A stretch of 33,260 nt of DNA from Anaerolineales bacterium (GTDB lineage Bacteria > Chloroflexota > Anaerolineae > Anaerolineales > Villigracilaceae). Below, piece by piece: positions 4,491 through 7,388 of the stretch (position 1 is its first letter; the number at the start of each line of letters is the position of its first letter). The translations under genes were made by a program, and so were the position numbers. The stretch lies in assembly GCA_919902735.1 (NCBI GenBank), contig CAKKRM010000047.1, forward strand, positions 1 through 33,260, given 5' to 3'. The notes under the pieces are model-generated. The model was not told the DNA's origin, did no database searches, and worked only from the letters and a program-made list of their open reading frames with translations.

Positions 4491-4832
4491 TTATTTCGGG
4501 GGACGATTAATGCGAACGACCTTTTGAGAAAGGCTGTCTTCTGCTTGAATGGCATTGTGGATTCTCTTTGCGAACCCCAGGAAATCAGGGTCGTAAGTGC
4601 AGGCTAAAATCCCAGCGTGGGGCTGGCGTTTGTTGTGCAATTTGATGAAATGTCGGCGGTTCAGTGTAAGTAAAATTCTTTGCTTGTCATTTGCAAATGC
4701 CAGCACATCTTCATCCGACATGGCTTGGTTTGCCTTTTCTGTTTCCTGAATGGTCAACACATCATGCCCAAGCTTACGGAGTTCATCCACGATGGGTAAG
4801 GGGAAATTCTCGTTGGAATATAGACGCGCCAT
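4491..4832 (-). CDS. DUF5615 PIN-like toxin
   Basis: The protein is 113 aa, beginning MARLYSNENFPLPIVDELRKLG with HDVLTIQE after it. This is the usual N-terminus of DUF5615 proteins, with the acidic residues of a PIN-like RNase fold. A second acidic patch (SDEDVLAFA) and LTLNRRHFIKLH, in which the usual acidic residue of this motif is Arg, follow. It is predicted to be an RNA-cleaving toxin. It overlaps the stop of the DUF433 gene by one base (TAATG), so translation is coupled. DUF433-DUF5615 is a well-known toxin-antitoxin pairing. Confidence 0.8.
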   Translation of the reverse strand: MARLYSNENFPLPIVDELRKLGHDVLTIQETEKANQAMSDEDVLAFANDKQRILLTLNRRHFIKLHNKRQPHAGILACTYDPDFLGFAKRIHNAIQAEDSLSQKVVRINRPPK

Positions 4833-5161
4833 TATGCTTCCTCGTTGGCTTTGATTTGCGCGTCAATTTCCTTGCGATGACTGCGCTCGTATGCCCAGGC
4901 ATTCGCAAGGTCTTCTGCGCGTAATGTAGAATAGGAGAGGAGTAAATCTGCTTCGCTGGTTCCCAATCGCCGAGCTTGTGCCAACAGCCAAACAGGAATG
5001 CGCGTGCGGACAATACATGGTTCGCCTCCGCAGACTAGTGGATTGCTTTCAATTCCAGGAAACGAATCGCCCAAGTCACGCGCCGCCCATTGGAGCAATT
5101 GGGCTTTTTCAGAACGGGAAAGACCCTTGTATATTTTTTCGAGATTTCGTGTGTGTTGCAT
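4832..5161 (-). CDS. DUF433 antitoxin
   Basis: The protein is 109 aa. The central part (IESNPLVCGGEPCIVRTRIP, then VWLLAQARRLGTSEADLL) is the DUF433 winged-helix-like signature: xxPxxxGGxPxIxGTRI, here with R-T-R in place of G-T-R. It should bind the DUF5615 protein and the operon's own promoter. AAAGG lies eight bases before the ATG. The first 30 residues (RNLEKIYKGLSRSEKAQLLQ) are an N-terminal helical extension seen in some members. It is the first gene of the two-gene unit lying between repeats R4 and R3. Confidence 0.8.
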   Translation of the reverse strand: MQHTRNLEKIYKGLSRSEKAQLLQWAARDLGDSFPGIESNPLVCGGEPCIVRTRIPVWLLAQARRLGTSEADLLLSYSTLRAEDLANAWAYERSHRKEIDAQIKANEEA

Positions 5162-5190
5162 ATCAATAACCTTTCATTTGATACTCGTTA

Positions 5191-5250
5191 TTATACAGCC
5201 CAAAAATCTGACTTCAATTCCGCCTGCCTAAAAACCTCTGCAACCTGCAC
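5191..5250 (-). repeat. array repeat copy R4 (3' end of the merB-like gene)
   Basis: This copy is the genuine 3' end of the merB-like reading frame: QVAEVFRQAELKSDFWAV then TAA. It matches R3 over 60 ungapped bases with 9 mismatches. Confidence 0.85.
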
Positions 5251-5898
5251 GGCGCTTCGTCCATGATAATCCAAGGATAGGCGGTCGTGATACCAGAGTT
5301 TGGAAAGTTCCCAAACTTGATGGATCGTCAGAACCTCTCCGCGTTCGATGTTATTTAGTTTGCACCACTTGTCAACCCACTCCTCCGACTGGAAGAGAAG
5401 TATGTTTGCTCAGGTGAAGACCAAGTCATCATACCAACGGGCGAAGGGCAGGGGGAAGTGGACTAATAAACTGCTCCCGTCGCCGTCCTCGGCGGCGGGG
5501 ACGCCGTCGAGAGCATAAATGTTTCCGTTTTTTATTTCCAGTTGAACCGAGTCGTTGCTTTCCGTGAACACCGCGTCAATGACTGCGTCGCAATGCAATG
5601 CGGCGGGGACGCCGAGCATGTCCCAGGCGCAGTTGGCAAAGTAGGTCTTGCCGTTCGCGTGAACTCGAAAGTCTGTGGGAATGCCAGAGAAGGGATTTGC
5701 CATGCGAATGGTCAATGTGTTTGGTTCAAGAAAAAACGCGTGGCGGTTGTGTAATTCTTTGTAAAGTTCGCCAGCTTCTTCATTGTTGATGTTAAAGCGC
5801 TGAGCCGTCTCTTCCACGCTCGGCGGATGGGTTGTGTCCGCGAAGTGGTTGAAGATGAAAGCGCGAGTTTGCCAGAGGAGAGTTTCGTTGATCGTCAT
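5191..5898 (-). CDS. MerB-like (organomercurial lyase family) protein, candidate selenoprotein with Sec163
   Basis: A MerB-fold protein of 235 aa if UGA at 5410-5412 is read as selenocysteine; without readthrough it stops at 162 aa. Start is the ATG at 5898 behind GGGAGA. Residues 1-60 form the helical N-terminal region; FANCAWDML has C90 and D93, matching MerB Cys96 and Asp99. The second catalytic Cys of MerB (Cys159) aligns with the UGA: YDDLVFT-U-ANILLFQSEEW. Downstream the frame stays open and family-like (DKWC, LWYHDRLSLDYHGR, FRQAELKSDFW) to TAA at 5191, so this is not random sequence after a stop. MerB breaks carbon-mercury bonds; the true substrate here is unknown. Alternatives are a nonsense mutation or sequencing error. 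The genome must encode SelA/B/C/D for Sec insertion, which cannot be seen here. Confidence 0.75.
5380..5397 (-). promoter_or_regulatory. candidate bacterial SECIS hairpin
   Basis: On the minus strand, 12 bases after the UGA, CTCTTCC pairs with GGAGGAG (7 bp, one U-G pair) around the loop AGUC. UGA to apical loop is 19 bases, and the loop has G at its second position followed by U. Both fit the bacterial SECIS rules (loop 16-37 bases from UGA, G in the first two loop positions), and the GU recalls the loop of the fdhF element. Confidence 0.6.
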
Positions 5899-5991
5899 TC
5901 TTTTCTCCCAATCAATGCGAATTAAATCCATATACGATGTCGGAGATTTATTCGGGAGTGCAGGGGTTTTCTTTCGATCATTTACTTGCTC

Positions 5992-6028
5992 TTGAATATA
6001 CCAGAACTTTGAATTTAACTCTGCCAGT
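5992..6028 (-). repeat. array repeat copy R5 (most degenerate)
   Basis: About 24 of 37 bases match R3. The minus-strand reading is LAELNSKFWYI with no stop directly after (CAA). It lies upstream of the merB-like gene in the same orientation as the other four copies and marks the right end of the array. No coding gene precedes it before thrC. Confidence 0.5.
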
Positions 6029-6104
6029 TTAGACCTGTGGCCTTTTTTACCCAAAGTAGGCTGCATCTCATTGCAAGATATCTCAGGTCTTTTCCCTTAT
6101 CGGG

Positions 6105-6120
6105 TAAAATTACGACATTA
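6105..6120 (+). promoter_or_regulatory. possible -10 of thrC, leaderless transcript
   Basis: TAAAAT at 6105-6110 would place the transcription start at about 6117-6120, on the ATG itself. No Shine-Dalgarno sequence precedes the ATG. The -35 region is not clear. Confidence 0.35.
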
Positions 6121-7388
6121 TGAAAAATTTCTCTGGCTACAAATGTTCACTTTGCGGCGCAGAATACCTGCAAGGACAGGTCACGTACACCTGCCCAAAA
6201 GACGGCGGGAATCTGGACATCATCCTTGATTACGAAACCATCAAAAAAAAATTCCAACCCGAAGATATAACTTCGCGGACTGAATCCTCGCTGTGGAGAT
6301 ACCTGCCTCTTTTGCCTGTTGACGAACCCGCAGGTGACTCTACTCCCTTGCACGCCGCAGGCTGGACGCCGGTATTTGCCCTGCCGCGATTGGCAGAGAA
6401 ACTACGCCTCAAACATCTCTGGCTGAAAGACGAGTCGCGCAACCCCACGGCATCCTTCAAAGACCGTGCCAGCGCAGTGGTGGTAACTCGCGCGCGCGAA
6501 TTGAAATCGGAGATCGTGGTGACTGCCTCCACGGGCAACGCGGGCGCGGCGCTGGCGGGTATGTCTGCCGCAGTGGGACAAAAGGCCGTGATCTTCGCGC
6601 CCAAATCCGCTCCGCAGGCGAAGGTGGCGCAACTGCTCATCTTCGGCGCGAAAGTCATTTTGGTGGATGGCGCCTACGATGATGCCTTCGACCTCACCAT
6701 AAAAGCCGCACAGGAATTTGGCTGGTATTGCCGAAACACGGGCTACAATCCATTTACTGCGGAAGGCAAAAAAACTGCCGCCTTTGAAATTTGGGAATGG
6801 TGGATCGAAGCGCATCGTGAATGGCATAAAAAAGACAGCGCGTTGGAAGATCATCCGCCATTGTCCATTTTTGTTTCTGTGGGGGATGGCAACATCATCT
6901 CCGGCATTCACAAGGGATTTAAAGACCTGCTGGCATTGGGTTGGATTCCAAACATGCCGCGCATCATCGGAGTGCAGGCCGAAGGTTCTGCGGCAATTGC
7001 AAACGCCTTCCATGCAAATACAGAAATCGTCACGCCTGTCTCTGCCGCGACGCTTGCAGACAGTATTTCCGTTGACCTGCCACGAGACGGAATCCGCGCG
7101 GTGCGGGCGGCGAAGGAAACAGGCGGCACGTACATCACAGTGACCGATGACGAGATCATCCAATCCATTGCGGAATTGGGCAGGATGGGAGTCTTTGCCG
7201 AACCTGCCGGGGCGGCGGCGTATGCCGGTCTGGTCAAAGCGGCAGGCTTGGGCGGGGTGGGAGGCGACGATCCCGTTCTTGTGTTGAATACAGGCAGTGG
7301 TCTCAAGGATGTCCGCGCGGCGATGCAGGCTGTTCCATCGGCTCCGATCATCGAACCTACTTTAGAGGCGGTAAAACGTATTTTATGA
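6120..7388 (+). CDS. thrC: threonine synthase
   Basis: Converts O-phosphohomoserine to threonine with PLP (422 aa). The PLP lysine is K115 in NPTASFKDRAS. ASTGNAGAALAG (phosphate-binding loop) follows, with NTGSGLKD near the C-terminus. The N-terminus carries a zinc-ribbon-like segment with C9-x2-C12 and C25, but the expected fourth Cys is Asp28 (CPKD), so metal binding there may be lost. It overlaps the next gene by four bases (ATGA) and is first in a three-gene operon. Confidence 0.93.
   Translation: MKNFSGYKCSLCGAEYLQGQVTYTCPKDGGNLDIILDYETIKKKFQPEDITSRTESSLWRYLPLLPVDEPAGDSTPLHAAGWTPVFALPRLAEKLRLKHLWLKDESRNPTASFKDRASAVVVTRARELKSEIVVTASTGNAGAALAGMSAAVGQKAVIFAPKSAPQAKVAQLLIFGAKVILVDGAYDDAFDLTIKAAQEFGWYCRNTGYNPFTAEGKKTAAFEIWEWWIEAHREWHKKDSALEDHPPLSIFVSVGDGNIISGIHKGFKDLLALGWIPNMPRIIGVQAEGSAAIANAFHANTEIVTPVSAATLADSISVDLPRDGIRAVRAAKETGGTYITVTDDEIIQSIAELGRMGVFAEPAGAAAYAGLVKAAGLGGVGGDDPVLVLNTGSGLKDVRAAMQAVPSAPIIEPTLEAVKRIL

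Follow-up and report, generated by a model that had tools for sequence, protein, structure and literature searches.

The MerB-like gene on the reverse strand at positions 5191–5898 of the window (the whole stretch of 33,260 nucleotides analysed here) contains an in-frame UGA codon, at 5410–5412, that is almost certainly read as selenocysteine (Sec). With Sec at this codon the gene encodes a predicted protein of 235 amino acids that ends at a TAA stop (5193–5191), and Sec163 takes the place of Cys159 of MerB. That the product is a member of the MerB superfamily can be stated with equally little doubt, and organometal lyase activity of this MerB-like selenoprotein is an inference that is only slightly favoured. 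The explanation as a whole, in which lyase activity enters at this lower weight, is considered probable. The preliminary description had proposed a candidate selenoprotein with Sec at the UGA, and this proposal is supported by the presence of TGA in 70 of 71 loci, a hairpin behind the codon, and SelA, SelB, and SelD in the genome, with the lyase chemistry remaining inferred only. The conserved UGA, the hairpin, the Sec machinery, the family, and the three active-site residues can be read from the sequence, and support for Sec decoding is about as strong as sequence alone allows; Sec insertion in vivo, the chemistry, and the substrate are inferences, and there are no direct data on Se in the protein.

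From the ATG at 5898, the only stop ahead of the terminal TAA is the TGA at 5412–5410, after which 72 sense codons follow. Both this frame and the presence of Cys90 (5629–5631, reverse strand) and Asp93 (5620–5622, reverse strand) had been pointed out in the preliminary description and were confirmed in the sequence. The open reading frame list opens the frame at 6066, giving 218 amino acids up to the UGA, and the homologue alignments start near 5898. The Pfam MerB domain (PF03243) matches residues 70–203 (5290–5691, reverse strand), running across the UGA; the half before the UGA scores 46.1 bits, the half after it 23.2 bits, and the readthrough product 82.4 bits in one stretch (cut-off 27). 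The C-terminal tail (residues 204–235; 5194–5289, reverse strand), which ends in FW, lies outside the Pfam MerB model and is conserved in the family, with Trp-233 invariant.

The active-site residues were assigned by profile alignment to solved MerB structures, including the C160S mutant (PDB ID 3f2g), and the correspondences proposed earlier, of the UGA to Cys159, Cys90 to Cys96, and Asp93 to Asp99, hold. A profile of 55 family members matched MerB2 (PDB ID 5c17) with 84.9 bits, and the MerB structures 1s6l, 3f2g, 3fn8, and 5c0t were also matched. Within the MerB CC pair it is the first Cys that lines up with site 163, and because this is the Cys remaining in the C160S mutant, the site is equated with Cys159. 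The 55-row alignment was drawn from 64 rows (<98% identity, at least 190 amino acids) and leaves out L029, L031, L037, L040, L043, L057, L063, L068, and L071. Cys90 is present in all 55 rows and Asp93 is at least 90% conserved, with Cys at the latter position in L081, L128, and L131. Cys96, Asp99, and Cys159 are named as essential and strictly conserved in MerB in the accessible part of PMC8261052; the window gene keeps the first two and has Sec in place of the third. Across 108 labelled rows the active-site types are C-D-U (75), U-D-U (18), C-D-C (12), and C-C-C (3), and the Asp is kept in every Sec-bearing row. An AlphaFold2 model of the protein (mean pLDDT 87.3, pTM 0.86) falls below a pLDDT of 50 at residues 138–141 and at residues 158–161, the latter beside the Sec, and its comparison with the PDB gave 11 matches at E ≤ 0.001, all of them MerB or MerB2. 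The window protein scores far under the cut-offs of the NCBIfam MerB equivalogs NF009710 and NF033555 (29.2 versus 193 bits and 26.8 versus 200 bits, respectively), and no NCBIfam model reaches its own cut-off on it.

Relatives were found in 39 of the 396 genomes searched in the class, and 33 loci came from scanning named genome contigs; by title these are Chloroflexota save for one Gemmatimonadaceae assembly. Where the alignment extends across site 163, TGA stands at 70 of 71 loci and TGT at one, with TAA or TAG at none. This count omits L079 and L090, whose matches end short of the site, and it includes duplicate genes (L018/L074, L033/L073, L077/L086, and L032/L091), without which TGA is found in 66 of 67 genes; ten further loci with TGA at this site came from a search of the phylum. 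The preliminary description had asked whether homologues carry Cys or Sec at position 163, and the single TGT case, L081, has Cys there in a single open frame of 230 amino acids; Cys also replaces Sec in L136, L137, and L142. In the region after the TGA, dN is 0.10–0.17 and dS 0.43–1.54 against 12 of 13 close relatives (dS for the 13th, L060, was not computable), and this purifying selection after the UGA counts against a true stop or a decaying gene. Two observations that the preliminary description would have accepted as refutation, a TGC or TGT misread in sequencing and homologues that end naturally at this position, were not made: the same codon is TGA in dozens of other genomes (no raw reads were consulted), and the homologues run on past the UGA with conserved sequence, the Cys form being one open frame. 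The stretches L067:4404–4496 and L090:3001–3111 (G148) match only the tail, from residues 205 and 199, respectively, without the catalytic domain, and are perhaps remnants. The single-Sec relative at L034:1501–2136 (G181) contains another in-frame TGA, located 15 codons past the first, and is possibly a decaying copy.

Directly 3' of the UGA lies a SECIS-like hairpin, CUCUUCC-AGUC-GGAGGAG (5380–5397, reverse strand, with the loop at 5390–5387), that is marked by covariation and frozen synonymous sites. It was aligned over the 63 TGA rows of the set of 64, gap-free from the TGA. Columns 17–22 pair with columns 27–32, and the loop is GGUC in 43 sequences and AGUC, as in the window, in 20, with loop columns 24–26 (GUC) invariant in all 63. 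Paired cells amount to 97.6% (shuffled mean 95.6) and three pairs are changed on both sides (shuffled mean 0.2), values as high being obtained in none of 500 shuffles in either case. Sliding the partner by 1–3 columns left at most 69% paired; the covariation score of the +3-column control, 0.115, is slightly above the true value of 0.107. The hairpin codons are near-frozen at synonymous sites (Phe TTC in 62 of 64, Ser TCG in 63 of 64), with adjacent codons varying, and the Cys version L081 has a different sequence there and no such hairpin. Folding energy gives the window hairpin only modest support (z = −1.86, with 11 of 200 shuffles reaching so low a value), and the z values of four relatives range from −0.50 to −2.12. 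The energy by itself is weak evidence, and in its other features the element qualifies as a SECIS hairpin. An Rfam scan of window positions 4800–6200 returned nothing significant. We take the GGUC loop and the spacing to resemble those of the Escherichia coli fdhF SECIS.

A genome without Sec machinery would also have contradicted the selenoprotein assignment, but SelA (TIGR00474, 550.5 bits, cut-off 267.9), SelB (338.9 bits, cut-off 242.25), and SelD (358.4 bits, cut-off 125) are all encoded above cut-off in the window's genome (4.26 Mb, 356 contigs, 96% complete). The expectation of a full set of selA, selB, selC, and selD was met for three of these genes; selC (tRNA-Sec) was not found in the 356-contig assembly with an Rfam model (150 of 538 candidates scored), a pattern search, or synteny. 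The sole pattern match, L080, was rejected, being no tRNA by either ARAGORN or Rfam. All ten same-genus genomes tested have a tRNA-Sec above cut-off, which in the four relatives examined is located 227–867 nucleotides beyond tRNA-Pro(ggg), and contig C259 of the window's genome stops 131 nucleotides beyond tRNA-Pro(ggg). Because the contig ends where relatives carry tRNA-Sec, its absence is read as an assembly gap. The gene for SelD in the same genome (L016:1405–2466, reverse strand, G000:C167) has its own in-frame TGA, in CAGUASK, indicating a second likely selenoprotein.

SelB is above cut-off in 314 of the 396 class genomes and, being so common, is weak evidence when considered alone. Among class genomes with the TGA form it is above cut-off in 35 of 37 (the 39 with matches minus G270, which has Cys, and G148, which has the tail only), the two others being G109 (73% complete) and G186 (64% complete). 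The further phylum genomes with the single-Sec form have SelB above cut-off in 9 of 10 cases; the exception, G612, has the TGA form and is 98% complete, with SelB present only as a 122-position fragment. None of the four genomes with Cys forms of the window's family (G270, G414, G431, and G469) has SelB above cut-off, and G270, the TGT genome with L081, is 98% complete and lacks both SelB above cut-off and tRNA-Sec. tRNA-Sec was detected in every one of the 15 SelB-positive genomes tested, some of which are without the gene of the window's family, and in none of the four SelB-negative genomes tested (G270, G414, G469, and G650). G650 carries a C-D-C MerB-like protein outside the window's family.

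In the standard code UGA is a stop, and the gene could accordingly encode a truncated protein of 162 amino acids or be in decay, as may be suggested by the decayed copy on a Rubrobacter plasmid (L129) and by the second in-frame TGA further on in L034. This reading is hardly tenable in view of TGA in 70 of 71 loci, the purifying selection past the codon, the covarying hairpin, and the stop-free Cys forms; a chance stop or pseudogene was rejected on the grounds of TGA conservation, hairpin covariation, and purifying selection. TGA as an ordinary sense codon is disfavoured because more than 20 of the 71 genes terminate at TGA, although no dedicated test was made. With Sec at the UGA, the gene could also simply be SaoL. 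MerB-like selenoproteins as a kind are already known, one being listed in two reviews, of which the 2026 review, in its accessible part, names SaoL (NF040728, motif CU, one Sec; PMC13188914). SaoL shares the superfamily and the Sec with the window gene, and NF040728 matches all 55 members of the family alignment at E ≤ 0.001. It is nevertheless very unlikely that the two are the same, as the window protein scores 44.1 bits against a SaoL cut-off of 140 bits, the best E-value of the 55 members is no lower than 4.8e-16, the model is above its cut-off in none of 400 phylum genomes, and its match ends at residue 130, ahead of the Sec. In place of the CU motif that the accessible text of the review gives for SaoL, the residue ahead of the Sec is Thr in every one of the 55 rows and Ala in L150. 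SaoL identity was rejected on the NF040728 cut-off and the CU motif. Among the papers listed by the literature searches, nothing on Sec in MerB was found besides the two reviews, and an earlier description in the primary SaoL paper or a later selenoprotein paper is not excluded; neither the family with Sec at the Cys159 place nor the double-Sec family described below was found in the accessible papers and models, which do not cover the primary SaoL paper.

It is quite possible, if not the reading we prefer, that Sec is inserted and the protein is still no organometal lyase. It could instead have a different substrate, either as a MerB-fold enzyme with a housekeeping role or as a thiol/selenol protein that binds metal, and in some lineages it would be linked to operons of the mevalonate pathway or of translation genes. 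The neighbourhoods lend this support. In 70 loci with flanks, three genes being counted twice, an HMG-CoA reductase homologue is found upstream on the same strand in 27, within about 150 nucleotides in 15, and an HMG-CoA synthase homologue downstream in 13 (one member of each HMG-CoA cluster was checked against Pfam or NCBIfam). Another lineage has rpsB 742–848 nucleotides upstream in 8 loci, tsf directly before the gene in 5, and pyrH directly after it in 5. HMG-CoA reductase is not adjacent in the window; the gene for HMG-CoA synthase, one of the recurrent neighbours in relatives, starts at 343 on the same strand and is cut by the window edge (2–343; TIGR00748 positions 1–101, 148.9 bits), with a DUF433/DUF5615 pair and other genes in between. 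Such pairs, of which this one lies directly downstream of the MerB-like gene (4491–5161, reverse strand), are presumably toxin-antitoxin-like. Searches for pMR68-type MerT, MerP, MerF, and MerA found none in the 70 loci, the 18 double-Sec loci, or the window (E ≤ 1e-4, without a positive control), and the lack of mer genes found nearby weakens a classical mercury-resistance role and is also in keeping with a protein that is no lyase. Against such a protein stand the retention of all three MerB lyase residues, with Sec for Cys159, and the structural matches, the top ones all being MerB, and neighbours in bacterial operons can differ in function.

An organometal lyase remains the best single guess because all three catalytic residues are kept. 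The SECIS hairpin after the UGA would recruit SelB and Sec-tRNA, and the UGA would be read as Sec163. Cys90, Asp93, and Sec163 would then form a MerB-type active site in which Se replaces the sulphur of Cys159. The most likely reaction would be protonolysis of a carbon-metal bond, with methylmercury as the model substrate; the metal would sit between the thiolate of Cys90 and the selenolate of Sec163, and Asp93 would assist in protonating the leaving carbon. The roles given here to the three residues are assumed by analogy with the MerB mechanism.

In a second family, in-frame TGA codons occupy the positions of Cys96 and of Cys159 alike. Four matches of the SaoL profile are of this type (L157:1312–2043, L148:1282–2040, L151:1315–2064, and L158:1507–2178, all on the forward strand), and a search of the 396 class genomes with L157 gave matches in 17, of which 15 have TGA at both places, the remaining two being a Cys/Cys MerB and a single-Sec gene. 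The main double-Sec set consists of 17 loci (the 15 plus L148 and L151), namely L148, L151, L157, and L163–L176, with L158 as an outlier; for L164 one TAG is counted in addition. In all 17 main loci the first TGA is followed by CCCTTCGTGCAAGGG and the second by a GGUC-loop hairpin with a closing pair of U-A for C-G, and each TGA has its own conserved hairpin. A profile from 15 of the 17 loci (without L164 and L175) places site 121 at Cys96 and site 196 at Cys159 of solved MerB, although the matches are weak (best 29.4 bits); the Pfam MerB cut-off is passed by all three members scanned, and the Asp is kept as UxxD. SelB exceeds its cut-off in each of the 18 genomes that have a double-Sec gene, and in two genomes, G085 and G309, single- and double-Sec genes occur together. 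No shared neighbour was found, with no partner in more than 4 of the 17 loci.

The relationships among these proteins were inferred from 116 sequences, of which 8 duplicates or fragments and 2 near-copies were dropped to give 106 rows; the result is a quick tree with long branches and an unsure deep order. L158 is separate from the other 17 double-Sec sequences, and two origins of U-D-U would be needed to account for this, a conclusion that is not firm as L158 is a long branch in a quick tree. We lean somewhat towards the view that Chloroflexota hold a graded series of MerB-fold proteins, from C-D-C through C-D-U (the window's family) to U-D-U, with Se taking the place of sulphur at one and then both catalytic thiols; U-D-U would have a hairpin behind each UGA and at least two origins. 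On this view the proteins work outside mer operons as organometal-breaking or metal-handling selenoenzymes and go unnoticed in MerB surveys, the UGA being annotated as a stop.

The closest Cys form, L081 (G270), has Cys in place of Asp93 as well, and the Cys forms of the other three genomes (G414, G431, and G469) are plain C-D-C. The latter (L136, L137, and L142) are placed beside L088, a relative with Sec, in the tree, which looks like an exchange between Sec and Cys. Plasmid matches were found in 10 records; of the four examined, one is CDC, two are CCC, and the fourth is a decayed Sec copy. This copy, L129:3001–3407 on the Rubrobacter radiotolerans plasmid NZ_CP007515.1, is annotated as an 89-amino-acid merB; its TGA is kept and the hairpin and later frame are broken, as would be expected of a decaying Sec gene, here in an isolate. 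The double-Sec query matched 7 plasmid records, all below 60% identity, and 8 pattern matches in viral contigs included no relatives.

MerB is the reference enzyme for methylmercury breakdown, and mercury has a higher affinity for selenium than for sulphur. A natural Sec in the position of one catalytic thiol, or of both, would allow a direct test of whether Se enhances or alters the cleavage of carbon-metal bonds or is used for another metal, with the Cys forms in SelB-less genomes as natural controls. The strong affinity between mercury and selenium is described in the accessible part of PMC11639659. With the UGA annotated as a stop, gene models end short of the second catalytic residue, and Cys159-based surveys are expected to miss MerB-like selenoproteins for this reason; the accessible part of one survey, which covered 84,032 genomes of every kind, reports MerB from 7 genomes of Chloroflexi (PMC8261052).

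When compared with MerB (PF03243; PDB ID 3f0o and 1s6l; MerB2, PDB ID 5c17), the window family has the same domain, fold, Cys96, and Asp99, but differs in having Sec for Cys159, a conserved C-terminal tail, and no mer genes found nearby. The double-Sec family of L157 and its relatives shares PF03243, Sec at the Cys159 place, the GGUC hairpin, and the Asp with the window family, from which it is distinguished by Sec also at the Cys96 place, an N-terminal extension, and the lack of a shared neighbour. The Cys forms L081 (Chloroflexota), L128 (Paraburkholderia), and L131 (Sphingomonas) align with the window family over most of its length, including the tail, but have Cys at the Sec place and at the Asp99 place too (CCC). 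SaoL, the MerB-like organometallic lyase of the SAO system (NF040728), is likewise MerB-like with one Sec as far as the accessible part of PMC13188914 describes it, whereas the window family falls far below the SaoL cut-off and carries a TU motif in place of CU.
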